A stretch of 64,000 bases of DNA from Alcaligenaceae bacterium SAGV5 (GTDB taxonomy: Bacteria; Pseudomonadota; Gammaproteobacteria; Burkholderiales; Burkholderiaceae_B): positions 558,001 through 622,000 of the forward strand of contig SPDP01000001.1 of the NCBI GenBank assembly GCA_009360345.1, given 5' to 3'. The translations under genes and the position numbers were made by a program. Of this stretch, positions 24,005-50,187 are shown piece after piece; the stretch's first letter is position 1, and the number at the start of each line of letters is the position of its first letter. The notes beneath the pieces were generated by a model, which saw nothing but the letters and a program-made list of their open reading frames with translations, was not told the DNA's origin and did no database searches.

Positions 24005-24037
24005 AGGGGGCGTTGCCCGAGGTTCGGGCGCACCCCC
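24005..24037 (+). terminator. Hairpin after phoX-like gene
   Basis: A nested inverted repeat starts 11 bases past the phosphatase stop codon: an outer GGGGG/CCCCC pair encloses GCCCGA-GGT-TCGGGC. It has no T-run and probably assists the terminator that follows directly. Confidence 0.45.
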
Positions 24038-24045
24038 ATTTACAG

Positions 24046-24076
24046 CCCGGATGGCCTGGCCATCCGGGTTTTTTTT
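24046..24076 (+). terminator. Intrinsic terminator of the phoX-like gene
   Basis: CCCGGATGGCC and GGCCATCCGGG form a near-continuous hairpin that ends in an eight-T run, a textbook Rho-independent terminator. It separates the phosphatase from the aromatic-catabolic operon starting at 24289. Confidence 0.9.
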
Positions 24077-24288
24077 CGACCCAGGTTTCCGGTTTTCTTC
24101 CATTGGCCGTGGCTTGGTTCGCGATGACCCGGGCGGGGAGGCCGCGGCCGGCCACAGGCCCCGGGGGGCCGGGGCGGATCGTTGAGTTTTGCTCCCGCTG
24201 GGTCACGAAATTTGCTTTGAACTCTCCGCGCTTGGCGACCATCATTGCCTCCCTGATCAGAAGCCCAAGGCTCAACACAGGAGATAGC

Positions 24289-29650: not shown

Positions 29651-29680
29651 CACCTGCATCCATTGTCCAAGGAGATCGAC

Positions 29681-30544: not shown

Positions 30545-30559
30545 TGAGGCGCCGGCGTG

Positions 30560-31492
30560 TCATGTCGGGCCGAAGCCCGATTCCCTGGACCAGTCCTGGA
30601 TGAGCTGATCGGTCGTCGAGCCTTCCTGGATCAGGTACTCGGAAAATGTGCCGATCGTCTCGGACAGATGCGACGTGGGCTGGCTGCTCACGTAGTAGTG
30701 ACGCCGCCGCACCCCCTGCATGCCGAACGGCGCGCACAGCTTGCCGCCGATGAGATCGTCCACGACGATGAAGGTAGGCAGCAGCACGAGGCCGAGTCCT
30801 TCCTGGGCCGCCTGCAATCCGAAATACATCGGATCGAAGCGCAGTATGCGCGCCGGCGCGAGCGTCGGCCGTCCCATCGCGGCCAGCCACTGTGGCCAGG
30901 TGTAGGACTCGGTGGAGTAGGTGATCAGGGTGTGGTTGGCGATGTCGTCCACCCGTAGCGGCTTGCGGCCGTCGAGCAAGTCGGGGTGGCAGACGGGAAT
31001 GATGTTTTCCTGGATGAAAGGAATCGACGTCACGCCCTCCAGCGGCGCCCATCGGCCCCTTATGCCGACGTCGAACTCTTCTTCGCGGATCGTATCCGTC
31101 GGGCGATAGGTCGCGACACGCAGATCGATATGCGGATGCCGGCGCAGGAACGTCGGCATTCGGGCCATCAGCCATCGCATGGTGAAGGTCGGCGGGGCAT
31201 TGAGCCGGATCACGACGTCGGTTTCCTGATTCCGGAGGTACTCCGCGGCAAACGACAACCGGTTCAGTGCCGCAGAGGCCTCCGTCAGGAAATTGCTGCC
31301 GACGTTGGTGAGCGTGAGCTGGGCCGCGCCTCGCACGAACAACGGGCGATTGAGCCACGATTCCAACAGGGCGACCTGGCGGCTGATGGCGCCACGGGTC
31401 ACGTGAAGTTCTTCGGCAGCCTTGGAAAAGCTGATGTGCCGAGCCGCGGCTTCAAAGGCGCGGACAGCGTTTAGCGGCGGTAGTTTCGACAT
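30560..31492 (-). CDS. LysR-family regulator (GcvA-like)
   Basis: A 310-residue LysR regulator of the GcvA/AmpR-like branch: PPLNAVRAFEAAARHISFSKAAEELHVTRGAISRQV forms the DNA-binding domain, followed by an effector domain with FDVGIRGRW. It is convergent with the meta-cleavage operon's hydrolase (gap 15 bases) and divergent from the SDR gene at 31685. The start used is the ATG giving MSKLPPLN. It is the closest regulator to both flanking operons and probably governs one or both. Confidence 0.9.
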   Translation of the reverse strand: MSKLPPLNAVRAFEAAARHISFSKAAEELHVTRGAISRQVALLESWLNRPLFVRGAAQLTLTNVGSNFLTEASAALNRLSFAAEYLRNQETDVVIRLNAPPTFTMRWLMARMPTFLRRHPHIDLRVATYRPTDTIREEEFDVGIRGRWAPLEGVTSIPFIQENIIPVCHPDLLDGRKPLRVDDIANHTLITYSTESYTWPQWLAAMGRPTLAPARILRFDPMYFGLQAAQEGLGLVLLPTFIVVDDLIGGKLCAPFGMQGVRRRHYYVSSQPTSHLSETIGTFSEYLIQEGSTTDQLIQDWSRESGFGPT

Positions 31493-31532
31493 GGACTTGA
31501 CAGTGTTGAGGCTAACGATGAGCGGTCGCCAT

Positions 31533-31546
31533 GTGCAATCTTGCAC
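31533..31546. promoter_or_regulatory. Inverted repeat in LysR/SDR divergent spacer
   Basis: GTGCA-ATCT-TGCAC is a perfect 5-4-5 inverted repeat 40 bases upstream of the LysR start, in the 192-base spacer before the divergent SDR gene. Location fits an autoregulatory LysR site, although its spacing differs by one from the standard T-N11-A form. Confidence 0.4.
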
Positions 31547-31684
31547 CGGCAAGGGAGCGTCCGACAACGGGGGCGATAGTTTTCCTGCCCCTGCGCGTCA
31601 ATAAGTGCGTTGCTCCGCCTGTTTCGTGCGTGTCAACATGGCCGCCGCATGGATGCATATCTTTCAAGCGGAGTCGGCTGCACG

Positions 31685-32479
31685 ATGAGCGAAGCAAAGG
31701 CAATGAAACGCCGCCACCCCTCACGGGTGGCGATCGTGACCGGTGTGGGAGCGGGCATAGGAGGGGTGGGGCGCGGCATTGCCGCGCGCCTGCTGCGCGA
31801 GGGCATGTGCGTCATGGCCGCCGATGTCGATCCGGCGGTCGAGCAAGTGATCCAGGACATTGCCCAGGCGCAGGGCATCGGTCCGGCCGGCGTGGCGTGG
31901 TTTGCGGGGGACCTCGGCTCCGAGTCGCAGGTACAGGCGATGACCGACCGCGTTATGGCGCGGTGGGGCCGGATCGACGTACTGGTCAACAACGCCGGTA
32001 GCGGCGTGATCCGGCCGTTCCTGGAGCACGATGCGGCATCGCTGGCGGCTACATTCAATCGCAACCTCTGGACGACGGTATGGTGCTGCCACAAGGTGTT
32101 GCCCCATATGGTCGAGGCCGACCATGGCCGCATCATCAATATCGGCGCCGACTCACTCAGGACCGGCATCCCCAATCATGCGGGCTACAACGCCGCGAAG
32201 GGCGGCGTGGTCGGTCTGATGGTGGGCCTGGCCCGGGAGTTCGCGCAGCACGACATCACCGTCAATACGGTATCTCCGTGCGTGATCAATACGAAGCGCC
32301 ACCGTGACGCATTGGCCGCCAACAAGGAAGTGACCAAGGAGTTCGTGCGTGTGGTGCCCAAGGGACGGGGGGTGGAGATCTACGAGGTGTGCGACATGGT
32401 GGCATTCCTGGCTCGCCAGGAGAGCGCGTTCATGACGGGGCAGGACATCAGCCTCAATGGCGGAAGCGCGATGCCATGA
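31685..32479 (+). CDS. SDR-family oxidoreductase
   Basis: A 264-residue short-chain dehydrogenase with an intact site: nucleotide motif TGVGAGIGGVG (about 19-29), NNAG, catalytic Ser in NIGADS and Y-N-A-A-K. It also has the SPCVINT segment after the active site. In contrast to the other SDR in this region (25299-26105), it can be expected to be catalytic. Its stop overlaps the start of the amidohydrolase gene (ATGA), so the two are coupled. It might supply the dihydrodiol or alcohol dehydrogenase step missing upstream. An ATG 12 codons earlier (31649) is possible. Confidence 0.88.
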   Translation: MSEAKAMKRRHPSRVAIVTGVGAGIGGVGRGIAARLLREGMCVMAADVDPAVEQVIQDIAQAQGIGPAGVAWFAGDLGSESQVQAMTDRVMARWGRIDVLVNNAGSGVIRPFLEHDAASLAATFNRNLWTTVWCCHKVLPHMVEADHGRIINIGADSLRTGIPNHAGYNAAKGGVVGLMVGLAREFAQHDITVNTVSPCVINTKRHRDALAANKEVTKEFVRVVPKGRGVEIYEVCDMVAFLARQESAFMTGQDISLNGGSAMP

Positions 32480-33504
32480 TCCATGCCGGCTTCAGTTGTG
32501 GATGCATCGACATCCATACTCATGTCGTTCCCGAGCACTTCCCCGCGTATGCGGGAAAACATTCAAACGTCCGCTGGCCGTCGACGGTGCCGGCGCATGC
32601 GTGTCACCGGCACGTCATGATGTCGGGGTCCGTCTATCGCACGGTTGCCGATGCCTGCTGGGATGAAACGAAGCGCATGCAAGCCATGGACGAGCAGCGG
32701 GTCGACAGGCAGGTGCTGTCGCCGATGCCCGAGCTGCTGTCGTACTGGCTGGCCACCGAAGATGGCGCCAACCTGGCGCGTTTCCTGAACGAAAGCATAG
32801 CGGAGATGGTGGCATCGGCGCCGGATCGATTCGTCGGGTTGGGTACCGTGCCGCTGCAGCATGTGGATACGGCGATCGGCGAACTTGAATTCCTGGTGGA
32901 GGAGCTGGGGCTCGCGGGGGTCGAGATAGGAACCAATGTCAATGGCGTGGTCTTGGGGGATCCTTGTCTTTCGCCCTTTTTCGACGCGGCGGAAAGGCTG
33001 GGCGCCGCGATTTTCGTGCACCCCTTGAGGCCTGTCGGCACTGAGCGTCTCGTGGGAGACGGGTTGGTGCAGATTCTTGCTTTCCCGGGGGAAACCGGCC
33101 TGGCGGCTGCCTCGTTGGTCACCTCGGGGTTGATGCTGCGCCACCCCCGGCTCCGCATCGCCTTCAGCCATGGGGGAGGAACGCTGGCGTCGTTGTTGCC
33201 GCGTTTGCAGCATGGATGGGAGGTGAACCCTGCCCTGCGCGACTCGATGCCCGTGGCGCCTGCCGAAGTCGTACGCCTGATGTACTACGACAACCTGGTC
33301 TACGAGACCGATGCGCTGCGGCGGCTCATTCATTGCTTCGGCGAGAGCCAGATCTGCGCCGGCACCGATTACCCGTTCCGGATCCGCGAGCGTGATCCGG
33401 TCGGGCGGATCGAGGGCAGCGGCTTGAGCGATCGTGTCCAGGCGCAATTGTGCCGCCTGAATGCGGAGCGCTGGCTCGGCATGGCGGCTGGCGAACCGGG
33501 GTGA
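32476..33504 (+). CDS. ACMSD-like amidohydrolase (decarboxylase family)
   Basis: A 342-residue TIM-barrel amidohydrolase of the PF04909/ACMSD group. Metal ligands are in D-I-H-T-H (H14, H16), the IFVHPL strand, the AFSHGGG strand and the GTDYPF aspartate. Members include 2-amino-3-carboxymuconate-6-semialdehyde decarboxylase, resorcylate decarboxylases and related hydratases, which are metal-dependent, non-oxidative C-C lyases. It is translationally coupled to the SDR gene. A decarboxylation or hydration step in the neighbouring aromatic pathway is plausible but unproven. Confidence 0.85.
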   Translation: MIHAGFSCGCIDIHTHVVPEHFPAYAGKHSNVRWPSTVPAHACHRHVMMSGSVYRTVADACWDETKRMQAMDEQRVDRQVLSPMPELLSYWLATEDGANLARFLNESIAEMVASAPDRFVGLGTVPLQHVDTAIGELEFLVEELGLAGVEIGTNVNGVVLGDPCLSPFFDAAERLGAAIFVHPLRPVGTERLVGDGLVQILAFPGETGLAAASLVTSGLMLRHPRLRIAFSHGGGTLASLLPRLQHGWEVNPALRDSMPVAPAEVVRLMYYDNLVYETDALRRLIHCFGESQICAGTDYPFRIRERDPVGRIEGSGLSDRVQAQLCRLNAERWLGMAAGEPG

Positions 33505-33542
33505 AAACCTTCGCCGCGTATTGACGCGCGCCGCCATGTCGG

Positions 33543-33590
33543 GGTCCCGGCCGCCTCGCGGCAGCCCCCCGGCGAGAGGCCGGGACCTTT
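33543..33590. terminator. Bidirectional stem-loop between convergent operons
   Basis: GGTCCCGGCC (33543-33552) and GGCCGGGACC (33578-33587) form a perfect 10-bp stem with a 25-base loop, followed by TTTACT. It sits between the amidohydrolase stop and the pcaDC stop, serving two convergent transcripts. Confidence 0.7.
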
Positions 33591-34761
33591 ACTGCTGGGC
33601 GGCCTTGTGCTTCTCGATGACCTTGCCGGCCAGGTGGAAACCGGTATTGGCCGCGGGCACGCCGCAGTAGATGGCGGCCTGCACCAGCGTTTCCTCGATC
33701 ACGGCGGGCTCGATACCGGCGCGCAGCGCGGCGGCCACGTGCATCTCGAACTCTTCCCAGCGGCCCAGCGCCAGCATCATAGACAGCACGGCAATGCGCC
33801 GGGTGGTGTCCTCGAAGCGGCTGGAAGTCCACACCTCGCCCCAGGCATAGCGCGTGATGAAGGCCTGGAAGCGGCGGTTGAAGGGCGTGATCGCGGCGTT
33901 GCGGGCGTCGACGTAGGCCGGGCTCAGGACCTGGCGGCGGCGTGCCATGCCGTAGTCGTAGCGGTCCTGTTCGGTCTCGACCGGCGGATCGGTCAGGAAT
34001 TCGACCAGGGTGTCGCAGAACTGCAGCGGCACTTCGCTGGCCGCGATGTGGGCGGCGGGCAGCATGCGGATCGTGGCGCCAGGGATCCTGCCGGCGATGA
34101 ACTCGCCGGCGGCCGGCGTGGTGGAGATGTCGCGCTCGCCGGTGACGACCAGCGTGGGCACGGCGATGCGGTGCAGGTCGTCGGCCACCTGCATGTCGCG
34201 GATGGCCGCGCAGCAGCCGGTGTACCCGGTCGCGGAGGTCTGCAGGAAGGTGTTGCGCACGCGCTGGAACGCGACGTTGTTGCGCGCGACGTACTCTGGC
34301 GTGAAGAAGCGGCCCATGGCCATGTCGACGATGCTGGCCATGCCGTTGGCGCGCACGGCGTCGATGCGGGCGCGCCAGGCCTGCGGGTCCATCTGGCAGG
34401 AGGTGTTGCACAGCACGAGCCGGCGCAGGCGGCCGGGCTTGTTGATGCCGTACCACATGCCGATCATGCCGCCCAGCGATACGCCGGCGTAATCGAAAGT
34501 CTCGGCGCCGGCGGCGGTGGCGACGGCGTCCAGGTCGTTGCCCAGTTGCTCCAGCGTGTAGTCGCCGGCGGGGGCGTCCGAGGCGCCATGGCCGCGCGCG
34601 TCGAAGCGGATCACGCGGAAGTGGCGCATCAGGCGCGGCAGCACGTCGTCCCAGACCGAGAAATCGGTGCCGATGGAATTGCCCAGTACCAGCGGCGGCA
34701 GATTCTCGTCGCCGTCGCTGCGCCAGTAGATGCGGGCGTCGCCGCTGACAACGTGGGGCAT
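33589..34761 (-). CDS. pcaL: Fused 3-oxoadipate enol-lactonase/4-carboxymuconolactone decarboxylase
   Basis: A 390-residue fusion. The N-terminal 255 residues are a PcaD-type alpha/beta hydrolase with nucleophile S95 in GVSLGGM, and the last 120 are a PcaC-type decarboxylase (YDYGMARRRQVL through AIYCGVPAANTGFHLA). Together they convert 4-carboxymuconolactone to 3-oxoadipate in the protocatechuate branch of the beta-ketoadipate pathway. Fused PcaDC (PcaL) proteins are known from several bacteria. It starts three bases after the pcaB stop, so the operon is pcaB-pcaDC. The ring-cleaving pcaGH and the pcaIJ/F steps are not in this window. Confidence 0.93.
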   Translation of the reverse strand: MPHVVSGDARIYWRSDGDENLPPLVLGNSIGTDFSVWDDVLPRLMRHFRVIRFDARGHGASDAPAGDYTLEQLGNDLDAVATAAGAETFDYAGVSLGGMIGMWYGINKPGRLRRLVLCNTSCQMDPQAWRARIDAVRANGMASIVDMAMGRFFTPEYVARNNVAFQRVRNTFLQTSATGYTGCCAAIRDMQVADDLHRIAVPTLVVTGERDISTTPAAGEFIAGRIPGATIRMLPAAHIAASEVPLQFCDTLVEFLTDPPVETEQDRYDYGMARRRQVLSPAYVDARNAAITPFNRRFQAFITRYAWGEVWTSSRFEDTTRRIAVLSMMLALGRWEEFEMHVAAALRAGIEPAVIEETLVQAAIYCGVPAANTGFHLAGKVIEKHKAAQQ

Positions 34762-34764
34762 GTT

Positions 34765-36126
34765 CTAGTCCTCCTGGATAAGGTTTTTCTGTTCCTGCCA
34801 TTGGTACAGCACGGCGCTGCACATGGGCTGGCAGGCGGCTATCTGCGGCTGAGGGCCGGCCAGGGTGTCGATGTCCGCCGCGCCGAGCACGGCGGTGACT
34901 TCGGGAATCTGCTTGAGCAGTTCGGCCACGGGCGTGCGCCGGGAAATGGCCTGCTCGCACACCTGGCCGACGATGCGCTGCGCCCGGGCCGGTCCGAGCA
35001 GGGCCGACAGCCGCAGCGAGATGCCTTCCGAATAGACGACCCCGTACAGGCGGTCGATGTTCGCCTGCATGGCCTGCGCATCGACGCGCATGCCTTCGGC
35101 GATGTCGACCGCGGCGGCGATGCCGCTGGCCGCGAGGCTGAACAGGTCGGCCAGCACCGGCAGCGAGTTGGGCCAGGTGCCCAGGCCGCGTTCATGTTCG
35201 GAGGCAAGCTCGCCGGCCAGGATGGAGGCGAGCGCGGGGGCGCGATACGCGGCATCCATCAGGTACATGCTGGAAACGGGATTGCGCTTGTGCGGCATGG
35301 CCGACGATCCGCCTCGGCCTTCGCCGGCGGGTTCGAAAGCCTCGGCCACCTCGGCCTGCATGAGCAGGGAAATGTCGCGGCCGATCTTGCCCAGCGCGCC
35401 GCACAGGATGGCCAGTTCGCTGCCCAGCCGCGCCAGGCGGTCGCGTCCGCCCTGCCACGAGATCGCGGGCACGCGCAGGCCCAGCCTGTCGGCCAGCACC
35501 CGCGCGACGCGCTGGCCTTCGCCGTAGTGGGTGGCCAGCGTGCCGTTGGCGCCTCCGAATTGCAGCGTGCAGGCTTCGCCGCCCGCGCGCGCGAGCGCCA
35601 CGCTGCTGCGGCCCGCGGCGTCGAGCCAGCCGGCGACCTTCCAGCCGAAGGTGACCGGGGCGGCGGGCTGGATCAGCGTGCGGCCGAGCAGCGGCGTGCG
35701 CCGATGCGCTTCGACCTGCGTGGCCAGCGCATCGCCCAGCCGGACCAGCTCGGCCCGCAGCAGGTCCAGCGACTGCCGCGCCAGCGTGACCATCGCGGTA
35801 TCGGCGAGGTCCTGGCTGGTCGAGCCGTAGTGCACGTAGGTGGCGGCGCCTTCGTCGCGCCTGGCCACCGCGGCCTTGAGCATCTTGACCAGTGGAATGG
35901 CCATGGTGCCGGCCACGCGGGCATCGGCCGCCAGCTTGTCGGCGTCGAGCGAGAAAGACGAGCAGGTATCGATGATGGCCGCGGCCGCCTCGGCCGGGAT
36001 GACGCCGCAATCGCGCTGCGCGGCGGCCAGTTCGGCCTCGAAGCGGACCATGGCGGCGATCACCGCCTGGTCGGTCCAGATGGCCCGGATGGCGGGCGTC
36101 GAGAAGAAGGCGTTCAGAGCGTCCAT
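34765..36126 (-). CDS. pcaB: 3-carboxy-cis,cis-muconate cycloisomerase
   Basis: A 453-residue fumarase/aspartase-superfamily enzyme lactonising 3-carboxy-cis,cis-muconate. The superfamily signature GSSAMPHKRNP is present, as are VHYGSTSQDLADT near residue 100 and GRTLIQPA near 150. The start used is the ATG giving MDALNAFFST. Together with the downstream pcaDC fusion it carries three consecutive steps of protocatechuate ortho-cleavage. A CysB-like LysR gene is divergent across a 172-base spacer. Confidence 0.95.
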   Translation of the reverse strand: MDALNAFFSTPAIRAIWTDQAVIAAMVRFEAELAAAQRDCGVIPAEAAAAIIDTCSSFSLDADKLAADARVAGTMAIPLVKMLKAAVARRDEGAATYVHYGSTSQDLADTAMVTLARQSLDLLRAELVRLGDALATQVEAHRRTPLLGRTLIQPAAPVTFGWKVAGWLDAAGRSSVALARAGGEACTLQFGGANGTLATHYGEGQRVARVLADRLGLRVPAISWQGGRDRLARLGSELAILCGALGKIGRDISLLMQAEVAEAFEPAGEGRGGSSAMPHKRNPVSSMYLMDAAYRAPALASILAGELASEHERGLGTWPNSLPVLADLFSLAASGIAAAVDIAEGMRVDAQAMQANIDRLYGVVYSEGISLRLSALLGPARAQRIVGQVCEQAISRRTPVAELLKQIPEVTAVLGAADIDTLAGPQPQIAACQPMCSAVLYQWQEQKNLIQED

Positions 36127-36204
36127 GGGAGTGCCGTGGCGGATGAGTCGAGCAGAAGAGGACGGGCATGACGATAGCACGACAGCCATATCGGGTTCCG
36201 GGGA

Positions 36205-36218
36205 TTTCCGTAGGGAAA
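36205..36218. promoter_or_regulatory. Small inverted repeat in pcaB/LysR divergent spacer
   Basis: TTTCC-GTAG-GGAAA lies in the middle of the 172-base spacer, flanked by two CCATAT tracts (about 36187 and 36223). It could be a regulator site for pcaB or for the CysB-like gene, but the arms are short and occurrence by chance is possible. Confidence 0.25.
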
Positions 36219-36298
36219 CGGGCCATATGTCCGGGCGGAAATCGCGTCCGCCGATATCAGCCATACTTGTCCGGCCGTCATGCCGGATGAGGTCGTCC

Positions 36299-37255
36299 AT
36301 GAACCTGCTTCATTTGAAAGCGTTGTGCGAAATCGTCGAAAAAGGCTTGCACCTGTCGCAAGCTGCCGAAGCCCTCCACCGTTCACAGCCCGCCCTGAGT
36401 CGGCAGATTCAACAACTGGAAGCGGAGCTGGGGGTCGTCCTGTTCGAGCGCAATCGCAGCCGGTTGATCCGGTTGACGGATCAAGGCCGCGAGATCGTGG
36501 AGATCGCTCGCCGCATCATGAACGACGCACGGGATATCACCCGCGTGGCCCAGGAGCGGACCGATCCCGGTCGAGGCAGCCTGACCGTGGCGACGACCCA
36601 TACGCAGGCCCGGTACACGCTGCCGGCCATCATTCAGAAGTTCAAGCAGAAATACCGCGGAGTCACGCTTGGCCTGATGCAAGCCACGCCGGTCCAGTGT
36701 TGCGACCTGGTGGCCAGAGGCCAGGCCGACATCGCGATCTGCACGGAAACCGGTCCCCGCGCGGATGTCGTCCAGATTCCCTGTTATCTCCTGCCCCGGA
36801 TTGTCGTCACCCCGCCCCGGCATCCCTTGCTGCGGCTTCGTCCTCCGACGCTGGAAGCGATCGCCCGTTATCCCATCATTACCTATGCCGAAGGGTTCAG
36901 TGGCAGGTCCATCGTCGATCGGGCCTTTCATGACGCGCAACTGACGCCTACGGTGATGCTGAGTGCGATTGATGCCGACGTCAGCAAGGCCTATGTCGAG
37001 ATGGGATTGGGTATCGCGATACTCGCCGACGTTGCTTTTGATCCCAAACGCGACAAGCAATTGCGCCGCATTCCTGCAAACATGTTGTTCGAACCCAGCC
37101 GGCTCAACGTGGTCATTCGGCCCAAGACCTATCTCCGGGGCTATTCCCTGGATTTCATACAGATGTTCGCGCCCACGTTGACGGTCGCCCAAATTCATCA
37201 AGCGGCTTCCGCACGGGGGCTGCGGGCAGTCAGGCGGGAGCTGCCGTCGCTCTGA
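36299..37255 (+). CDS. LysR-family regulator, CysB-like
   Basis: A 318-residue LysR regulator of the CysB/Cbl branch: HTH in residues 1-60 (LHLSQAAEALHRSQPALSRQIQQLE) and the diagnostic T-T-H-T-Q-A-R-Y-T-L-P at the start of the effector domain (about 98-108). It is divergent from pcaB and runs in the same direction as the large aldolase/SDH-like operon, whose first gene begins 82 bases after its stop; a LysR-type palindrome lies in that gap. The latter operon is therefore a likely target. CysB-like members outside sulfur metabolism are known; the effector here is unknown. Confidence 0.9.
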   Translation: MNLLHLKALCEIVEKGLHLSQAAEALHRSQPALSRQIQQLEAELGVVLFERNRSRLIRLTDQGREIVEIARRIMNDARDITRVAQERTDPGRGSLTVATTHTQARYTLPAIIQKFKQKYRGVTLGLMQATPVQCCDLVARGQADIAICTETGPRADVVQIPCYLLPRIVVTPPRHPLLRLRPPTLEAIARYPIITYAEGFSGRSIVDRAFHDAQLTPTVMLSAIDADVSKAYVEMGLGIAILADVAFDPKRDKQLRRIPANMLFEPSRLNVVIRPKTYLRGYSLDFIQMFAPTLTVAQIHQAASARGLRAVRRELPSL

Positions 37256-37298: not shown

Positions 37299-37337
37299 TC
37301 CGCGGAAAGTTTGCATTGGCAAGAATATCCCTCGTCC

Positions 37338-38096
37338 ATGACCATGCCCCTGAGCCACCCCGACTCTCTGCGGATGGCACAGGATGGATGGGCCATGTAC
37401 AAGAAGATCATCGAACGTCGTGATCGGCGTCACCTCTCGCTGCTACCCGGGTTCAACGGCATATGGACATCCACATTGGCCGACACCATGGGACGTCATG
37501 GCGTCATGGCGGGGGACATCCGCCCCCTTGTGGCCGATGTTCCGCTGGTTGGCATCGCGCTCACCGTCCTGAATTACCCGGACGACAACATCACCACCCA
37601 TCGGGCGCTGCAACTGGTACAGCCGGGTGATGTCCTGGTGATCGACGCCGGACCCGGAAGCATGACCGGGTCGTTCGGCCACAACATGTCGCTGGAGGCC
37701 CGCAAGCGAGGGGCGGTGGGCGTGGTGTCCAGCGGCTTCGTTCGAGACTTGCGCTTGCTGCGCGCGGACGGGTTTCCGGTATTCGCGCGGGGCGGCTGCC
37801 CGAGATCGGCCCAGAAGAACACGCCGGGATCGATCAACGTTCCGATTTCCGTTGGAGGCGTGGTCGTGCAGCCTGGCGATGTCATCGTCGGAGACGACGA
37901 CGGCATTGCGGTAGTTCCCTTCGGCGACGCCGCGGAGATCCTTGCGCAGGCCAAGCAACGCATGCAGATGGAGCACCAGCAAGCCCTCGATATTCGTGCC
38001 GGCAAGCGCCCGCTGGAGATCGTGCACGGCGAGGACTGGCTGGCCGAGTCGTTGCGCGGAAAGATAGAGGTGGTCGGGCGTGGGGACGGGCAATGA
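37338..38096 (+). CDS. RraA-like (HMG/CHA) aldolase-family protein
   Basis: A 252-residue protein of the RraA/4-hydroxy-4-methyl-2-oxoglutarate aldolase fold. The metal and pyruvate-binding signature appears as VGVVSSGFVRDLRLL (G-x-x-R-D), with VIDAGPGSM and VGDDDGIAVVP as other conserved loops. Class II members cleave gamma-carboxy-gamma-hydroxy-2-oxo acids to pyruvate plus a keto acid. Its stop overlaps the start of the flavoprotein gene (ATGA). As first gene of the operon it may perform the final retro-aldol cleavage of the pathway. A nearby ATG two codons on is also possible. Confidence 0.85.
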   Translation: MTMPLSHPDSLRMAQDGWAMYKKIIERRDRRHLSLLPGFNGIWTSTLADTMGRHGVMAGDIRPLVADVPLVGIALTVLNYPDDNITTHRALQLVQPGDVLVIDAGPGSMTGSFGHNMSLEARKRGAVGVVSSGFVRDLRLLRADGFPVFARGGCPRSAQKNTPGSINVPISVGGVVVQPGDVIVGDDDGIAVVPFGDAAEILAQAKQRMQMEHQQALDIRAGKRPLEIVHGEDWLAESLRGKIEVVGRGDGQ

Positions 38097-39853
38097 GCGC
38101 GGAACAAGCCTTCAAGGTAGAGGCCGCCTATGACATCATCATCGCGGGCAGCGGCGCCGCCGGGATGCGAGCCGCCATCGAGGCGCATGATCGCGGCGCA
38201 CGTGTTGCCCTGTTGGCGAAGGGACCACCACGTGCCAATCACACCCGCATGTCGGGGGGGCGCTATAACGCGGTCTCCGGTCAGAATCCGGCCGACAGCA
38301 CGGGGGCGTTTCTTGGAGACACGCTCGATTCCGGCTGCCACATCAACAACCACCACATGGCGCGCGCGCTTGCCGAAGAGGCCATGGATCGCGCCTACGA
38401 TCTCGAGTCATACGGGCTGGCTTGGGATCGCAAGGAGGATCGCCGCTATGTGCTGACCATGACGGGGGGCGGCAGTTTTGTCCGTACCATCGGGTCGGTC
38501 GACGAGGGCATCGGCATTACCGAGGTCATGCTGCATCAGTTGTACAAGCGCCGCATTCCCGTCCTGGGATTCCACATGCTGGTGGAGGTGGCACAGGCGG
38601 ACGACGGTCATGCATGCGGTGCGCTGGCGCTCGACATGGCCGCCGGCATGTGGCGCTATTTTCCCTGCAAGGCCGTCATCATCGCGACGGGCGGGACGTC
38701 GCAACTCTACGAAACCAGCTCGGGGCCGGTCATCAATACCGGCGATGGCATCGCCATTGCATTGCGGGCGGGGGCAAGACTGGTGGACATCGAGTTCATG
38801 CAGTTCATTCCCATCTCGTTCGTCTATCCGCCAAGTGCGCGCGGCTACACCTTGACCGAGCCCGCCCATTATGGGATGCGGCACTACGACCCCAATGCCG
38901 ATGCGGCCCACCTCCTCAACAATCAAGGAGAACGCTTTGTCCTGAAGCATGATCCGGTCCGCCGCGAGGGTAGTACGCGGGACGTACTCGCTCGCGCCAT
39001 CATGCTGGAAATCCTCGAGGGCCGGGGAACCCCGGAAGGAGGGGTACTCATGGTGCCGGACCCCAGGGTCTTCGAATCGTTCTTGAAAGAGCGGCCCATA
39101 TACGTCAAGAGGCTGCTGGAGAACTACGGAGAAGACCAGGCACGGTTCCAGAAGCCGATCCAGGTCATGCCCAGCGCGCTTTACACGCTTGGCGGCGTTC
39201 AGGTCGATGCCTGGTGCCGTTCGTCCGTTCCCGGGTTGTTCGTGAGCGGGGAAGCGGCCGGCGGCGTGCATGGCGCCAATCGCCTGGGTGGAAGCTCCAT
39301 GCCGGACATACAGGTTTTCGGACGGCGTGCCGGCATGGCGGCGGCCGAGCATGCCGCGCAGCGGAGCGAGCCGGATGCCTCCGGCGTCAAGCATGCCTTG
39401 GCGCGGGTGCAGGCGCTCGAGGCGCCGTTGAGAAGAGACGGCGGGCTACGCCCCTGCGAGCTCAAGCAACGCATCCAGAAATTGATGTGGGACAACGTCG
39501 GTCTGGTCCGTAGCGAAAAATCGCTGACATCCACCTTGACCGCGTTCTCCGCGCTGCGCGAACAGTCGCTTGCGCAGTTGTTCGTGACAGGCAAGACCCG
39601 CATTCTCAACCGGGAATGGATGGAGGTCATGGAGCTCGAGAACATGCTGGACATCGGCGAGGCGATGGCGACGGCGTCGCTGCTGCGCACGGAGACGCGC
39701 GGAGCGCACTATCGCACCGACTATCCGGAGTCGGATCCGCACTGGCGCGCCAATATCTGCGTGGACAAGGTTCGTGGCCGGATGCTCGCGGCCCGCCAGG
39801 AGGTCGTCGGTATCGAGGCGGCGAGAGAGCCGGCCGTAGCCGTCGGCAGGTAG
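38093..39853 (+). CDS. Succinate-dehydrogenase/fumarate-reductase-like flavoprotein with altered active site
   Basis: A 586-residue FAD subunit. The nucleotide motif GSGAAGMRAA (19-28) and the covalent-FAD-type histidine in ANHTRMSGG (H50) are present. Catalytic arginines are kept: R296 in STRDVLARA and R397 in GANRLGG. However the two substrate-binding histidines of SdhA/FrdA (H242 and H354 in E. coli SdhA) correspond to I239 in QFIP and L363 in ALYTLGG, and TEGxRG is replaced by TEPAHYG. The substrate is therefore probably not succinate or fumarate. It is the first of four overlapping or adjacent genes for a membrane-bound complex. Confidence 0.85.
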   Translation: MSAEQAFKVEAAYDIIIAGSGAAGMRAAIEAHDRGARVALLAKGPPRANHTRMSGGRYNAVSGQNPADSTGAFLGDTLDSGCHINNHHMARALAEEAMDRAYDLESYGLAWDRKEDRRYVLTMTGGGSFVRTIGSVDEGIGITEVMLHQLYKRRIPVLGFHMLVEVAQADDGHACGALALDMAAGMWRYFPCKAVIIATGGTSQLYETSSGPVINTGDGIAIALRAGARLVDIEFMQFIPISFVYPPSARGYTLTEPAHYGMRHYDPNADAAHLLNNQGERFVLKHDPVRREGSTRDVLARAIMLEILEGRGTPEGGVLMVPDPRVFESFLKERPIYVKRLLENYGEDQARFQKPIQVMPSALYTLGGVQVDAWCRSSVPGLFVSGEAAGGVHGANRLGGSSMPDIQVFGRRAGMAAAEHAAQRSEPDASGVKHALARVQALEAPLRRDGGLRPCELKQRIQKLMWDNVGLVRSEKSLTSTLTAFSALREQSLAQLFVTGKTRILNREWMEVMELENMLDIGEAMATASLLRTETRGAHYRTDYPESDPHWRANICVDKVRGRMLAARQEVVGIEAAREPAVAVGR

Positions 39854-39882: not shown

Positions 39883-40581
39883 ATGAACGATGAGATGACC
39901 GTCGAAGCCGAGATAAGGCGCTATTCGCCGGGAGAGGACGCGGGGCCTCGATACGAGCGGTATGTCGTGACGGGGGCAGGCAATATGCGTGTGCTCGATG
40001 TGATTCGCCGCATCTATGCGACCAGCGCGGGCGATCTGGCCTTCCAGTTCGCGTGTCGTATCGGGCGCTGCGGTACGTGCGCGGTCAAGGTGAACGGCGT
40101 TCCGGTCCTGGCTTGCCAGGAACGTTGTGTTCCGCGGATGCGGATTGAACCGTTGACGCCCTTCCCCGTCATCCGGGATCTCGTGATCGATCGCACCGAG
40201 ATCGAAGAGCGATATGCCAGGTTGGCGCTGACGCCGGCGCCTCCCGCGGCCGGCGCCGCGCAACCGCTGCCGATGGATCCCGGGCTTGCGGAGAGGATCG
40301 GGCATCTTGATTCCTGCCTCGCCTGCATGATTTGCGTGTCCGCCTGCCCAGCCGTGGCGGAGCGTCCATTCGACGGACCCGCGTTCATGCTCAAACTGGG
40401 CTACATGCACAAGCATCCGGCCAACGATCAGGACCGGGTCGACAGCGCGATGGAAAGCGGGCTGCTGGAGTGTTTTGGATGCGATGTGTGCACCCAGCTT
40501 TGCCCGGCGGATCTGAGCCCCGCCCAGGAAATACGGGAATTGCGGCGGGATGCTGTGCTGGGCGCGAGGAGCAGGTCATGA
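39883..40581 (+). CDS. SdhB/FrdB-like iron-sulfur subunit with an extra cluster cysteine
   Basis: A 232-residue electron-transfer subunit. The plant-type [2Fe-2S] ligands are C58, C63, C66 and C78. The bacterial-ferredoxin part has C145-x2-C148-x2-C151-x3-C155-P and C197-x2-C200-x2-C203-x3-C207-P. In ordinary SdhB/FrdB the position of C200 is a non-ligand (Val207 in E. coli FrdB) and the third centre is [3Fe-4S]; here a fourth Cys is available, so a second [4Fe-4S] is predicted. It relays electrons from the flavoprotein to the membrane anchors encoded next, whose first start overlaps its stop. Confidence 0.88.
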   Translation: MNDEMTVEAEIRRYSPGEDAGPRYERYVVTGAGNMRVLDVIRRIYATSAGDLAFQFACRIGRCGTCAVKVNGVPVLACQERCVPRMRIEPLTPFPVIRDLVIDRTEIEERYARLALTPAPPAAGAAQPLPMDPGLAERIGHLDSCLACMICVSACPAVAERPFDGPAFMLKLGYMHKHPANDQDRVDSAMESGLLECFGCDVCTQLCPADLSPAQEIRELRRDAVLGARSRS

Positions 40582-40958: not shown

Positions 40959-41253
40959 TCGGGAGGTATTCGGCAGGGAGTTCCGCCGCACGCCGGTATG
41001 GGTCTGGTGGGTGCAGCGTTTGTCGGGCCTTGCCTTGGGGCCGCTGGTGGCGATTCACGCCCTGGCTCCGGAAATGGGGCGCCAGAGCTGGGTGCTGGCG
41101 CTGTTGCTGGTGTCTATCGTGGTGCACGGCTACTCGGGGCTGCGACGTATCGCACCCGCGGCGAACCATGCTTCAAAGGCGACCTTCCTTGCCTGGAGCT
41201 GGAGCGCGGTGGTGGTGGTCGCGGGCATCCTGGTCATGGCAGGCCTGTCATGA
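40945..41253 (+). CDS. SdhD-like second membrane anchor
   Basis: A 102-residue membrane protein with three predicted helices. It has a QRLSGLALGPLVAIHAL first helix and HGYSGLRRI, which repeats the H-x3-GLR heme motif of the first anchor. Its start lies inside the end of the preceding gene, and its stop overlaps the start of the enolase-superfamily gene (ATGA). Size and position identify it as the second anchor of the SDH-like complex. Confidence 0.78.
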   Translation: MPASSREVFGREFRRTPVWVWWVQRLSGLALGPLVAIHALAPEMGRQSWVLALLLVSIVVHGYSGLRRIAPAANHASKATFLAWSWSAVVVVAGILVMAGLS

Positions 41254-42434
41254 TCGACGCGATCGACGTTCACGTCACGGATCTGCCCGTTCGACTGCAG
41301 CGGACGTTCTCAAGCGGCAGCTATGACACGGGTCCGTCCGGACAGGAACTGGGCAAACCCGTGCTCGTGAAGATCCATGCCGACGGAGTGACGGGATACG
41401 GCCAGGTGCGGCCGATCGCTCCGGGACATTTCGTGGCGGACACGACGCACAGTGTCGTGGCGGCGATCCGCGATATCTACGGCCCGGCTCTGATAGGACA
41501 GCAGTTGTGCGGCCTGGAAAGCATGAATGCGATGTTCGATCGACGCCTGGCCGGCAATCCGGCCGCGCGCGCGGTGCTGGAGATGGCGGTCATCGATGCG
41601 ATGGGGAAGGCCTGCGGCGTCCCGGCGCATACCTTCCTGGGCGGACCGTGTCGAACCCGTATTCCCCTGGAATGGTCGGTCAGCCTGGCCGGGGATGTGG
41701 GTGCCATTGTCGCGGAGGCGACGATGGCCGCCGAGCAGTATGGCATTGGAATCCTGTGCATCAAGGGCGGGGACCACCGAGGCTGGCGGCAGGACGTACG
41801 CCATATCGAAGCCGTGCGTCGGGCGTTGGGCGATTCGATTGTGGTGGGAATCGACCCCAATACCGGTTGGACGGTCCCCGATGCGTTGCAGGCCGTCGAT
41901 GCCTTGAGGACGATCGGCATCGCCTATATCGAGCAGCCGGTCGACCGGCGCGACCTGGCCGGCCTGGCCGAGATCAGGCAGGTGGCGCGTGGAATCCCCG
42001 TCATGGCCGATGAAAGTCTGTTCACGCTCCAGGATGCGCTGGCGCTGGCGAGCGCGCGCGCCGTGGATGCCTATTGCATCAAGCTTTACAAGGTGGGCGG
42101 ATTCACCACCGCGAGGAAGATGGCCGCGATTGCCGAGGCTGCGAATCTTCTCGTCAATTGTGGCGGCCTCGCGGTTCAGTCGCAACTGGAAGCCGCGGCC
42201 GCGGCGCACTTTTGCGCGGGAGTGCGTCCCGACCGGTTCTTTGGCGGCGCCGAGTTCACCTTCGGCTTGAACACGGTGGCGCCCGACCCGCTTGTTGTGG
42301 AAACCGATTTCGTCATTCGTGACGGCAATGTGGAAGTTCCGACCTCTGCCGGGCTCGGGGTGACCATCGATGAGGCGGCACTGCGTCGCTACACGCTACG
42401 CCTCGAACATATCGGCAGAGAGACACGGAGATAA
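41250..42434 (+). CDS. Enolase-superfamily enzyme (muconate lactonizing/mandelate racemase group)
   Basis: A 394-residue enolase-superfamily protein with an N-terminal capping domain and C-terminal barrel. Metal ligands D202 (GIDPNTGW), E228 (YIEQPV) and D254/E255 (MADES) are present, with a C-terminal-side catalytic lysine K278 in YCIKLYKVGG. The K-x-K at the end of the second strand reads C170-I-K172, so only the inner lysine is retained, as in muconate-lactonizing-type members with a changed first position. Possible activities are syn-elimination, cycloisomerisation or epimerisation. It is translationally coupled to the SDH-like anchors. Confidence 0.85.
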   Translation: MIDAIDVHVTDLPVRLQRTFSSGSYDTGPSGQELGKPVLVKIHADGVTGYGQVRPIAPGHFVADTTHSVVAAIRDIYGPALIGQQLCGLESMNAMFDRRLAGNPAARAVLEMAVIDAMGKACGVPAHTFLGGPCRTRIPLEWSVSLAGDVGAIVAEATMAAEQYGIGILCIKGGDHRGWRQDVRHIEAVRRALGDSIVVGIDPNTGWTVPDALQAVDALRTIGIAYIEQPVDRRDLAGLAEIRQVARGIPVMADESLFTLQDALALASARAVDAYCIKLYKVGGFTTARKMAAIAEAANLLVNCGGLAVQSQLEAAAAAHFCAGVRPDRFFGGAEFTFGLNTVAPDPLVVETDFVIRDGNVEVPTSAGLGVTIDEAALRRYTLRLEHIGRETRR

Positions 42435-42439
42435 ATGCC

Positions 42440-43411
42440 ATGAAGCCATCGATGATGTCGACGCTCTGTATGAGCCTGGTTGCCACCTGGGGCCTGGCCC
42501 CGTGGAGCGTGTGGGCGGGCTACCCCGAACGACCGATTCGCCTGGTCCTGCCCGTCGCGCCGGGCGGCGGGACGGATATCGTCTCCAGGATCGTGGCGGA
42601 AAAGCTCGCGGCCGGGCTGGGCCAGTCCGTCATCGTCGAGAATCGCGGCGGCGCGGGGGGAAATATCGCGGCGGAGATGGTCGCGCGCGCCAAGCCAGAC
42701 GGCTATACGCTGCTGGTCGTCACCGCCAGCCATGCGACCAATCCCAATCTCTACAGGAATCTGCCGTTCGATACATTGAAGGATTTCATTCCCATCACGC
42801 AGTTGACCAGCCAGCCCTACCTGTTCGTGGTCAACCCCCAACTGCCGGTAAAGAGCGTGCCGCAGTTTGTCGCCTATGCGAAGAAAACACCGGGGGTCAC
42901 CTATGCGTCGTCCGGATCCGGTCTGCTGGGACACCTGGGCATGGAGCAGTTGAAGATGCTGGCCGGATTCGATGCCATCCACGTTCCGTACAAGGGCGCC
43001 AGTCCCGCGCTGGTCGACACGATCGCCGGACATACGCAGGCCTTTTTTCCAACCGTCGTGTCCGGCCTGCCGTTCGTTCGTGACGGCAAGGTGCGCGTCA
43101 TCGGGGTCACCAGTTCGAAGCGCCTGAGCCTGCTGCCCGATGTGCCCACCGTAGCGGAAGCGGGGTATCCGGATTATTCCGTATATGGCTGGTACGGCTT
43201 GCTGGCGCCGGCCGGCACTCCGAAGGAGATCATCGATCGTCTTCACGACGAAACCGTCAAGGTGCTGGGGATGGCGGACGTAAGGGCGAAGATAGCCGCG
43301 GACGGCGCAGAACCGATCGGCAGCACGCCGGAGCAATTCGACGCATACATCCGAAGCGAAATGGAACGATGGGGAGTGGTCATCAAGCAGTCGGGAGCGA
43401 GGGTCGATTGA
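42440..43411 (+). CDS. Bug-type periplasmic solute-binding protein 4
   Basis: A 323-residue Bug/TctC-like protein. A signal sequence ends near PWSVWAG; YPERPIRLVLPVAPGGGTDIVSR and VIVENRGGAGGNI follow. It sits 5 bases after the enolase-superfamily stop and one base before the aconitase start, so it is certainly part of the operon. It presumably binds the carboxylate substrate of the SDH-like pathway. Confidence 0.92.
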   Translation: MKPSMMSTLCMSLVATWGLAPWSVWAGYPERPIRLVLPVAPGGGTDIVSRIVAEKLAAGLGQSVIVENRGGAGGNIAAEMVARAKPDGYTLLVVTASHATNPNLYRNLPFDTLKDFIPITQLTSQPYLFVVNPQLPVKSVPQFVAYAKKTPGVTYASSGSGLLGHLGMEQLKMLAGFDAIHVPYKGASPALVDTIAGHTQAFFPTVVSGLPFVRDGKVRVIGVTSSKRLSLLPDVPTVAEAGYPDYSVYGWYGLLAPAGTPKEIIDRLHDETVKVLGMADVRAKIAADGAEPIGSTPEQFDAYIRSEMERWGVVIKQSGARVD

Positions 43412-43412
43412 A

Positions 43413-46088
43413 ATGTCGTTGCGCGATCGATGCCTGAGGCCATTGCGAGTGAACGGGCAGGCAGGATGCTTCTATTCTCTGGATGCGCTGGCGGAAACCG
43501 GGCTGCCCGGGATCCGCAGGCTGCCGTTCACCTTGCGTATCGTTCTTGAGTCGTTGCTGCGCAATTGCGATGGCACGCGTGTCCTGGAGCAGGATGTCCG
43601 CGACCTGGCGAACTGGCAGCCGAATGCGGCAAGAACGCAGGAAATCCCCTTCGTGGTGGGACGCATCGTGCTGCAGGACGTGGCGGGCATCCCCCTTCTG
43701 GGAGACCTGGCCGCGCTGCGCGGCGCGGCCGCTCGAACGGGGCGGCCGCTCGAAAGCGTGCGCCCGCGTGTCCCGGTAGACATGGTGATCGACCACGCAA
43801 TCGAAGTCGATGTCAGCGGAGTGCCTGGTGCGCGCAAGCACAATGAGCAACGAGAATTCGAGCAAAACGGCGAGCGATTCGGCTTCGTCAAGTGGGCGAT
43901 GCGGGAGATCGACGGCATCCGGCTGATTCCTCCGGGGTTCGGCATCCTGCATCAGGTCAATCTGGAGTACCTGTCCACCGGGTTGCTGCGGGATGGCGAC
44001 GTATATTTCCCTGACTCGTTGGTGGGTACCGATTCGCATACCTGCATGATCTCCGGTCTGGGGGTGATGGGCTGGGGCGTGGGCGGTATCGAGGCTCAGG
44101 CAGCCATGCTGGGGGAGCCGGTCGGCTTCCTGGCCCCCGATGTCGTCGGGGTACGCCTGGTGGGTTCGTTGCGGCCCGGGGTGACGGCGACCGACCTGGT
44201 GCTGCACCTTACGCAGATCTTGCGCGCAGCCGGCGTCGTGGGGCAGTTCGTGGAGTTCATCGGCGAGGGGGTCGCGGGTTTGACCGTACCCGATCGCGCG
44301 ACGATCGCCAACATGGCGCCGGAGTACGGCGCGACGGTGGGGTTCTTTCCCTTCGATCGGCAAAGCGTGCGCTATTTGACAGAGACCGGACGAGGCCCTC
44401 AAGCGATCGCCGATCTGGAGCGCTACCTGACGTTGCAGGGGTGCTTTGGCGACCCCGCCGAACGCGACGTTCGCTATACGCGGTATGTCGACGTCGATCT
44501 GGGGGATATGGGGCCATCGGTCGCGGGGCCCAGGCGCCCTCAGGACCGCGTCGATCTCCGGGATGTGAAGCAGGTCTTTCGCCGGGTCGTTCAGACCCCG
44601 GCCGGGAAGGGAGGGTACGGACGGGGCGAGCCGTGCTGGCGGCAGGACAAGGATGCGGACGGAACGTATCAACCCAGGGATGGCGACATCCTGATTGCGG
44701 CCATTACGTCCTGCACCAACACGTCCAATCCCTCGGTCATGCTTGCTGCCGGCCTGATCGCCGATGCGGCCGTCAAGCGCGGCATGGTCGTCCGGCCTTG
44801 GGTCAAGACATCCATGTCGCCAGGGTCCCGCGCGGTGACCGCCTATCTGGAGAGAACGAATCTCCAGCGCTCGCTCGACGCGCTGGGCTTCCAGGCCGTG
44901 GGATACGGCTGTATGACATGCGTAGGCAATTCCGGTCCGCTGGACGCCGAGGCCATGGATATGTTGCGCGCGAGCGGCGTCGTCGGGTGCGCGGTGCTGT
45001 CGGGCAATCGGAACTTCGAGGCTCGCATTCACCCCGCGCTGCGCGCGAGCTGGCTGGCCAGCCCACCCCTGGTTGTCGCCTATGCCCTGGCCGGAACGGT
45101 GGACATCGACCTGGCAAGCGATCCGCTGGGCATCGATCAGGCGGGACAGCCGGTATTCCTGGCGGAGCTCTGGCCCGACGATGCCACATTGGCATCGATG
45201 CTTGCCTCGGTTACCGATCCGCAGGCCTATCGCGAGATCTACGTCAACCAGCTCGGTCAGGGCAGTTCCCGGTGGGACCGGCTGCCGGACATACCCGGCC
45301 GCCTCTATCCATGGGACGCGGGATCCACCTTCATCCAGGAGCCGCCCTATTTCACCGACCCGGCCCTGGGGCGATCCCCCCTGGAGGACTTCGGCGGAGG
45401 GCGGGCGTTGCTGATCCTGGGGGACTCCGTCACGACGGATCACATCAGCCCCATCGGGCCGATCGACGCCGACTCTCCGGCCGGCCGCTACCTGCGGGAC
45501 AGCGGTGTCCCAGCCGATGCCCTGGGCTCCTACGGCGCGCGGCGCATGAATCATGAAGTCATGATACGCGGAGGCTTTGGCAACATTCGTCTACGCAATC
45601 TGATGATTCCAGGGGGGGAGGGGCCATGGACCTTGTTCCATCCCGGGGGGAAGCGCATGCCGCTGTTCGACGCGGCCATGCGCTATCGCCAGGCTGGCGT
45701 TCCCCTGGTCGTCTTCGCCGGCCATGACTATGGCACGGGCAGCGCCCGCGATTGGGCGGCCAAGGCGACACGCATGCTGGGGGTGAAAGCAGTCATTGCC
45801 AGCAGCTTCGAACGCATTCACCGGAGCAATCTTGCCGGAATGGGCGTTCTGCCCTGCCAGTTGCCTGCCGATGTGTCGATCGCGTCGCTCGACCTGGACG
45901 GCAGCGAGACGTTCGCGCTCTCGGGCCTGTCGATGAAGTTGGAACCGCGGTCGGAATTGAGGCTTTCCATACTGCGAGCAGGAGGTGGGCGGCTCGAAGT
46001 ACCGGTGGTTTTGCGGCTGGATACCCGGACGGAGATCGAATACGCCAGGCATGGCGGGATTCTGCGGTATTTGCTGGAACGGATTTGA
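43413..46088 (+). CDS. Aconitase homologue (AcnA-type, 891 residues)
   Basis: A full-length four-domain aconitase-family hydro-lyase. Cluster cysteines are C434 (SCTNTSNP), C500 and C503 (CMTCVGNSG), essentially the numbering of E. coli AcnA. DSLVGTDSHTCM, the NNxxL-type fourth-domain swivel region and GHDYGTGSARDWAAKA near residue 770 are also recognisable. It would hydrate or isomerise a di- or tricarboxylate. Position at the end of the aldolase/SDH-like/Bug operon argues for a dedicated catabolic role rather than the housekeeping citrate cycle. A terminator-like hairpin follows its stop. Confidence 0.88.
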   Translation: MSLRDRCLRPLRVNGQAGCFYSLDALAETGLPGIRRLPFTLRIVLESLLRNCDGTRVLEQDVRDLANWQPNAARTQEIPFVVGRIVLQDVAGIPLLGDLAALRGAAARTGRPLESVRPRVPVDMVIDHAIEVDVSGVPGARKHNEQREFEQNGERFGFVKWAMREIDGIRLIPPGFGILHQVNLEYLSTGLLRDGDVYFPDSLVGTDSHTCMISGLGVMGWGVGGIEAQAAMLGEPVGFLAPDVVGVRLVGSLRPGVTATDLVLHLTQILRAAGVVGQFVEFIGEGVAGLTVPDRATIANMAPEYGATVGFFPFDRQSVRYLTETGRGPQAIADLERYLTLQGCFGDPAERDVRYTRYVDVDLGDMGPSVAGPRRPQDRVDLRDVKQVFRRVVQTPAGKGGYGRGEPCWRQDKDADGTYQPRDGDILIAAITSCTNTSNPSVMLAAGLIADAAVKRGMVVRPWVKTSMSPGSRAVTAYLERTNLQRSLDALGFQAVGYGCMTCVGNSGPLDAEAMDMLRASGVVGCAVLSGNRNFEARIHPALRASWLASPPLVVAYALAGTVDIDLASDPLGIDQAGQPVFLAELWPDDATLASMLASVTDPQAYREIYVNQLGQGSSRWDRLPDIPGRLYPWDAGSTFIQEPPYFTDPALGRSPLEDFGGGRALLILGDSVTTDHISPIGPIDADSPAGRYLRDSGVPADALGSYGARRMNHEVMIRGGFGNIRLRNLMIPGGEGPWTLFHPGGKRMPLFDAAMRYRQAGVPLVVFAGHDYGTGSARDWAAKATRMLGVKAVIASSFERIHRSNLAGMGVLPCQLPADVSIASLDLDGSETFALSGLSMKLEPRSELRLSILRAGGGRLEVPVVLRLDTRTEIEYARHGGILRYLLERI

Positions 46089-50149: not shown

Positions 50150-50187
50150 CCCATCATCGAGGCGCACAGACGCCAGAGGAGACATGC

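Follow-up and report, generated by a model that had tools for sequence, protein, structure and literature searches.

Complex II is generally regarded as an enzyme whose specificity is restricted to C4 dicarboxylates. The flavoprotein subunits of this complex, SdhA and FrdA, contain two carboxylate-binding histidine residues (H242 and H354 in E. coli SdhA). Urocanate reductase (UrdA) of Shewanella, which is not part of a complex II-type set, is a described flavoprotein in which one of them is replaced. In UrdA, Tyr373 takes the position of H242, the substrate group at this position is not a carboxylate, and the catalytic arginine is kept (PMC7921117). The same study reports that UrdA, with one of the two histidines replaced, has no fumarate reductase activity, that its Y373H variant gains low fumarate reduction, and that the enzyme keeps the equivalent of H354 (His520) and is without the Glu residue of complex II (PMC7921117). 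The tricarballylate dehydrogenase TcuA is a flavin adenine dinucleotide (FAD) flavoprotein that acts on a tricarboxylate. The window analyzed here is the 64,000-nucleotide stretch at positions 558,001 to 622,000 of contig SPDP01000001.1 from Alcaligenaceae bacterium SAGV5. It encodes an SdhA-like flavoprotein in which both substrate histidines are replaced, in an operon with SdhB-, SdhC- and SdhD-like subunits, an RraA-type protein and an aconitase with altered motifs. No description of this operon is apparent among the papers listed by searches of the open-licence PubMed Central (PMC) literature, as judged from titles and the starts of abstracts. The explanation that we favor, and consider rather likely, is that the gene product serves as flavoprotein in a dedicated membrane-bound complex II-like dehydrogenase (SdhABCD), the main substrate of which is a branched polycarboxylate and not succinate.

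The flavoprotein contains the Pfam domains FAD_binding_2 (208.8 bits) and Succ_DH_flav_C (94.8 bits), and the solved structures with the highest phmmer scores are SdhA and FrdA chains (E 7.1e-63 for 1nek_A). The first-pass annotation, made by eye, had placed Ile239 and Leu363 at the positions of H242 and H354, and had regarded the FAD-linking His (H50) and the catalytic arginines R296 and R397 as retained. These assignments are borne out by the residue-by-residue phmmer alignment with E. coli SdhA (1nek), in which H242 corresponds to I239, H354 to L363, R286 to R296, R399 to R397, T254 to T255 and E255 to E256, and in which H45 is matched to H50 ahead of the first gap. T254 of SdhA is a further contact in the carboxylate site. 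Chance and misalignment are ruled out as causes of the histidine loss, because the sequence on either side of each site can be aligned with several families free of gaps. The TEGxRG motif had been read as TEPAHYG. It is indeed altered, but it is not lost, because the four-residue insert PAHY interrupts it after T255-E256 and the motif resumes with G261, Met or Lys, and R263, followed by another short insert. R263 pairs with the relay arginine R258 of SdhA in the phmmer alignment and in a 38-row MAFFT alignment, where this column is Arg in 29 of 29 rows from outside the family described below. R263 is likely to be the counterpart of R258, not certain to be so, because one of the three alignments (a 30-row MAFFT alignment) leaves it unpaired. 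H259, Y260, R263 and H264 sit in or around the insert after TE, and this insert should border the substrate pocket. As judged from sequence, the residues for hydride and proton transfer (the FAD His, both catalytic arginines, the Glu of TEG and probably R263) look intact, and both carboxylate-binding histidines look replaced. The earlier suggestion that the chemistry may be conserved and the pocket rebuilt is partly supported by this result, at the level of the residues. The AlphaFold2 model, calculated from a 9-row family alignment, has a mean confidence score (pLDDT) of 58.6, with values below 50 at residues 235-322, 356-374 and 390-404, including the pocket, and was therefore used for the overall fold alone. 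This low-confidence model superposes on FrdA (6b58_A) with a Z score of 36.1 and a root-mean-square deviation of 3.3 over 349 residues.

Relatives were collected by a pattern scan of genome contigs from 84,980 species with one protein as the query, a kind of scan that can miss members. Eight were obtained, 69-74% identical to the window's protein in the best segment and 67-72% in the family alignment. Their hosts are Betaproteobacteria/Burkholderiales metagenome-assembled genomes, one Gammaproteobacteria metagenome-assembled genome and the alphaproteobacterium Agaricicola taiwanensis. I239 is present in 9 of 9 family proteins, the window's included, and L363 in all 8 that reach it (that of locus L033 ends before it). 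H50, R296 and R397 are likewise present in 8 of the 8 that reach those positions, and T255 is replaced by Leu in 3 of 8. As controls, 29 relatives from outside the family were used, 21 from genome-search loci and 8 from plasmids. None of the 29 has lost both histidines: 21 keep both, and the other 8 retain H354 but carry Phe in place of H242. Because I239 and L363 are invariant in the family, whereas loss of both histidines is found in none of the controls, the trait is, on these alignments, conserved and not a sequencing error or a product of chance. A 36-row tree groups the family as one clade (support 100/100), apart from the relatives with both histidines. Viral contigs were also scanned for relatives of the flavoprotein, and none was found. 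A separate SDH-like group occurs in the same bacterial family (L002 in the window's own genome, at C8:1639416-1641089, and L013, L014, L017, L018 and L020-L022); it has Phe at the H242 site, keeps the His at H354, has WD in place of TE, and has no FAD-linking His where this position is readable.

The family is rare. At E <= 1e-150, the flavoprotein is detected in 2 of 399 genomes of the order, the window's genome and G090. Of 369 genomes of the class and, at E <= 1e-120, of 398 genomes of the phylum, only that of the window has it. Among 11 genomes of the genus it is present only in the window's genome, the best other match being 36% identical, and among 4 genomes of the family of G090 only in G090 itself. 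This rarity is what a degenerate or inactive paralog might show, but such an explanation is very improbable, given that the operon is intact with overlapping genes and that the motifs are invariant at 69-74% identity across three proteobacterial classes. It is also improbable, though less so, that succinate is still oxidized or fumarate reduced with other residues standing in for the histidines. The catalytic Arg pair, the FAD His and the Glu are kept, H259, Y260 and H264 of the insert region could be such residues, and the SdhB-like subunit exceeds the cut-off of the general succinate dehydrogenase/fumarate reductase iron-sulfur model TIGR00384. However, a canonical SdhA with both histidines is encoded in the same genome (L003), and the double loss is found in the operon-bound family but in none of the 29 other relatives. 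The lack of fumarate reductase activity in UrdA points in the same direction (PMC7921117). Succinate is thus unlikely to be the substrate, and the enzyme probably oxidizes a larger acid instead.

The protein shares with complex II its fold, both Pfam domains, the FAD-linking His, the two catalytic arginines and SdhBCD-like partners, but differs from it in the replacement of both substrate histidines, the TEGxRG insert, the extra Cys of SdhB and an operon that includes an aldolase and an aconitase. Though complex II-like, it is not filed here as a succinate dehydrogenase, because the substrate histidines are missing and its NCBIfam scores are under the SdhA/FrdA cut-offs (346.5 against 567.3 bits for TIGR01812, 278.2 against 727.35 for TIGR01816, and 258 against 932.7 for TIGR01176). 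L-aspartate oxidase NadB is rejected on its score (TIGR00551, 279.3 bits against a cut-off of 452.75). The best NCBIfam matches of the flavoprotein and iron-sulfur subunits are TfrA and TfrB, but their scores of 397 and 163 bits are under the cut-offs of 718 and 385, and this identity is rejected as well. The model of TfrB, from the coenzyme M/coenzyme B-linked fumarate reductase, has 488 positions, of which only 3-216 match the SdhB of the window, and membrane anchors are present here. TcuA is rejected as an identity with 36.3 bits against a cut-off of 369 (NF006130).

The iron-sulfur subunit contains the first two cluster ligand patterns, for a [2Fe-2S] and a [4Fe-4S] cluster. The motif for the third cluster is C-x2-C-x2-C-x3-CP in 8 of 8 members, and its fourth Cys breaks the [3Fe-4S] pattern. 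This extra residue, Cys200, aligns with V207 of E. coli FrdB; it is invariant in the 8 members and is present in none of 8 other SdhB-type proteins from the fetched loci. One more pattern match with a Cys, in L043, adjoins a TcuA gene and was not counted as an SdhB. Replacement of V207 by Cys is reported to convert the [3Fe-4S] cluster of FrdB to a [4Fe-4S] cluster, and SdhB of Sulfolobus also carries an extra Cys. The third cluster of the window's SdhB is predicted to be a second [4Fe-4S] cluster instead of a [3Fe-4S] cluster, because Cys200 is located at the V207 position.

The features of the locus are listed in Table 1. The genes from RraA to AcnA are co-directional, with gaps of -14 to 29 bases, so that they overlap or nearly touch. 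Their G+C contents are 0.62-0.66 versus 0.67 for the whole window, which is weakly compatible with acquisition of the cassette. The RraA-SdhABCD set is present in 8 of 8 relatives as far as the contigs reach, those of L026, L032 and L033 ending early, and both membrane anchors are conserved. The gene for RraA lies upstream of that for SdhA in 7 of the 8; the contig of the eighth (L032) ends within SdhA. AcnA adjoins the set in the window, L030, L031 and L032, and its end is located upstream of RraA in L027. MmgE/PrpD genes lie beside the L027 and L033 sets, and L031 carries TctA, TctB and TctC. Agaricicola taiwanensis combines RraA, SdhABCD, MLE, AcnA and TctABC. Homologs of MLE are encoded in L031 (60% identity) and, beside a variant aconitase, in G090 (64%). 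A homologous LysR gene is found in L026, L028 and L031, in the last case about 8 kb beyond SdhA, after TctA.

Table 1. Coordinates of the operon genes and of the upstream regulator in the window
Feature	Coordinates	Strand	Evidence
LysR-family (CysB-like) regulator, possible operon regulator	36299..37255	+	NCBIfam PRK12684 362 bits, cut-off 402 not reached
RraA-type protein, predicted class II pyruvate aldolase	37311..38096	+	Pfam RraA-like 139 bits; start probably ATG 37395
SdhA-like flavoprotein with both substrate histidines replaced (I239, L363)	38093..39853	+	ATG 38093 to TAG 39853, 586 amino acids, 0 internal stops
SdhB-like iron-sulfur subunit	39883..40581	+	TIGR00384 137 bits, cut-off 88 passed
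SdhC-like membrane anchor, 126 amino acids	40578..40958	+	TIGR02970 30.7 bits (cut-off 52.3); Sdh_cyt 24.4 bits (cut-off 25.8) with a longer open reading frame
SdhD-like membrane anchor, 102 amino acids	40945..41253	+	Pfam Sdh_cyt 26.3 bits (above 25.8); no NCBIfam family
Mandelate racemase/muconate lactonizing family enzyme (MLE, muconate-cycloisomerase-like)	41250..42434	+	TIGR02534 196 bits, cut-off 335 not reached
TctC-type periplasmic solute receptor	42440..43411	+	Pfam TctC 254 bits
AcnA paralog with altered motifs (YGARRMN, GSARD)	43413..46088	+	TIGR01341 1092 bits, cut-off 945 passed

The RraA-type protein was compared with the HMG/CHA aldolase of known structure (3noj). R123 and the metal ligands D124 and E199 of this aldolase, which have described roles in metal binding and enolate stabilization (PMC5065237), correspond to R145, D146 and E221 of the window's protein. 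These three residues and R195, N71 and K147 are kept in 8 of 8 RraA proteins, and R40 is kept in 7 of 8. Thus the metal and enolate residues are common to both, but the scores are under the aldolase cut-offs (161.1 of 179 bits for PRK09262 and 139 of 304.5 bits for ligK).

The aconitase of the cassette keeps SCTN, the Cys pair and the first Ser of GS-x-RD. GSARD and RRMN occur together in 5 of 5 cassette-linked AcnA proteins (window, L030, L031, L032 and G090) and in none of 30 others. AcnA was searched for in 60 genomes of the order, 37 of which gave a match, and the best AcnA was read from 30; among these 30, only the window's protein and that of G090 have both motifs. The 30 others are the remaining 28 from this search and L036 and L037, two further AcnA proteins with GSSRD encoded in the window's own genome. 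All 30 have GSSRD (Ser at alignment column 778), and they have RRGN, RRGH, RRGQ, RRCN or HRGD at the RRMN site (Gly in 27, Cys in 3 and Met in none at column 712). The Ser-to-Ala change in YGARR was rejected as a marker of the cassette, because YGARRGN is also found in ordinary AcnA; only GSARD and the Met of RRMN were therefore used. In pig aconitase, S643 and R580 have assigned roles. Ser642 of aconitase is named as catalytic in another study (PMC8184944). G090 is also the only other of the 399 genomes of the order with the flavoprotein, and its AcnA was found blind. In this genome the variant AcnA is encoded on the same contig as the flavoprotein, in a run of genes (L086:7643-19699) for TctC, a TcuA-like protein, HacA, a PrpF-like protein, TctC, MLE, a PcaC-like protein, a sulfopyruvate-decarboxylase-like subunit and the variant AcnA. 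The TcuA-like dehydrogenase has 585 versus 369 bits on one TcuA model and 278 versus 373 on the other, and the PrpF/oxalomesaconate-tautomerase-like protein is under both cut-offs. From this run it seems that the aconitase variant may receive the products of more than one dehydrogenase.

In the main alternative, the enzyme would be a tricarballylate dehydrogenase that is built on complex II and linked to quinone, a functional counterpart of TcuAB that supplies aconitate to the adjoining aconitase. The position of AcnA beside the set in five loci (with its C-terminal end in L027), the TctC receptors, and the occurrence of a TcuA-like gene in one operon with the variant AcnA of G090 agree with this route. 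So does the finding that all 4 aligned TcuA proteins have a hydrophobic residue, Phe, where SdhA has H354. We nevertheless regard it as unlikely. The genome of the window already has three TcuA-type genes above the NF006130 cut-off (best 763 bits); TcuA belongs to another branch, and the aligned TcuA proteins are without the R399-type Arg that the family of the window keeps. Moreover, aconitate could be handled by an ordinary AcnA, whereas the motifs of this one are changed, and the aldolase would be left without a role.

A dehydrogenase for a non-carboxylate analogue of succinate, for example a beta-keto or sulfo acid, is equally doubtful. In UrdA the same His is replaced and the substrate group bound there is not a carboxylate, so that loss of the H242 equivalent can accompany such a group with Arg still doing the chemistry (PMC7921117). 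SDH-like sets on plasmids (L050 and L052) lie beside genes for fumarate hydratase and for TauE-type or sulfate exporters. However, the plasmid relatives keep both histidines in all 8 cases read, and the neighbors in the window are of aconitase and tricarboxylate type. These 8 come from a set of 17 plasmid matches (E <= 1e-60), all of them with less than 60% identity. The plasmid flavoproteins of L050, L051, L052 and L055, which have Cys at the position of the FAD-linking His and have genes for fumarate hydratase or UxaA-family proteins and for TauE/SafE or sulfate exporters as neighbors, are possibly dehydrogenases for sulfonated analogues of succinate.

For the branched polycarboxylate that we favor as the substrate class, we infer an order of steps from the residues, their conservation, the operon and the co-occurrence of its genes. 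The acid would be imported by a tripartite tricarboxylate transporter, and the complex would then dehydrogenate one of its C-C bonds. One carboxylate would be gripped by R397 and R296; replacement of the site for the other carboxylate (H242 and T254 in E. coli) and of the helping H354 would make room for a bulkier, possibly more distant acidic group. Hydride would pass to the FAD, which may be covalently linked to H50, and electrons would reach quinone in the SdhCD anchor by way of the [2Fe-2S] cluster and the two predicted [4Fe-4S] clusters. The modified aconitase would hydrate the unsaturated product, and the RraA-type aldolase would then cleave the resulting hydroxy acid; MLE or MmgE/PrpD could be optional isomerases. 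The extra Cys of SdhB and the substitutions in the cassette AcnA fit chemistry other than that of succinate. A dehydrogenase, an aconitase-type hydratase and a pyruvate aldolase make sense together for a substrate of the 4-substituted 2-oxoglutarate type, for example 4-carboxy-2-oxoadipate. A route from 4-carboxy-2-oxoadipate through 4-oxalomesaconate and 4-carboxy-4-hydroxy-2-oxoadipate to pyruvate and oxaloacetate would fit all three enzymes, but this exact substrate is a guess, with a small chance of being the right one. The known substrates of the MmgE/PrpD family are substituted C4 dicarboxylates with a common C4 dicarboxylate core (PMC12290011).

Several points weigh against this explanation. 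The AlphaFold2 model is poor over the pocket. A dicarboxylate longer than succinate might serve as well as a branched acid. The tree has long branches and a long family stem, and the placement of the clade is uncertain. D102 of 3noj is replaced by His in 8 of 8 RraA proteins, and RraA-like proteins have varied functions. AcnA is not found in L026, L029 and L033 within 7.0, 16.0 and 8.3 kb of sequence, respectively; in L028/G090 it is 48 kb away from SdhA, and in L030 its strand is the opposite one. MLE was observed in the window, in L031 and in G090 only. Because AcnA, MLE and PrpD are not beside SdhA in every relative, the downstream chemistry may differ among them or may not belong to the dehydrogenase. 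TctC-type receptors are abundant in the window (24013-25296, 42440-43411, 49588-51201, 55412-56395 and 59776-60831, four by Pfam and the fifth by eye), and the one beside the operon is therefore weak evidence.

Other genes of the window lie on either side of the cassette. Upstream, at 28607-36300, are aromatic-type genes that encode a class III extradiol dioxygenase-like protein (weak match), a BphD-like hydrolase and, on the opposite strand, a PcaDC fusion and PcaB. None of these genes was found by tblastn in the loci of the relatives, and a link to the cassette was therefore set aside. Downstream of AcnA, at 48390-50149, a HacA/LeuC-like large subunit is followed by what, by eye, resembles a LeuD-type small subunit (GCGSSREHA); upstream of this region are a ketopantoate-reductase-like gene and another gene of mandelate-racemase type, the second in the window. 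The operon of G090 that contains the variant AcnA also encodes a HacA with 54% identity.

The broader proposal is tentative. It holds that a branched oxo-polycarboxylate is degraded in an undescribed respiratory pathway by three enzymes: the complex II homologue, with its rebuilt pocket and its relay of one [2Fe-2S] and two [4Fe-4S] clusters, an aconitase that has co-evolved with it, and the RraA aldolase. If it is true, this pathway would do for larger acids what the citric acid cycle does between succinate and malate, with electrons passing straight to quinone. The iron-sulfur subunit looks like a natural version of the V207C cluster conversion of FrdB. Annotation by similarity would tend to label these genes succinate dehydrogenase and aconitase, names that are probably wrong for the substrate. 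A conserved family that keeps the catalytic residues and drops the carboxylate-binding histidines would serve as a natural test of which residues of complex II determine specificity and which determine chemistry.

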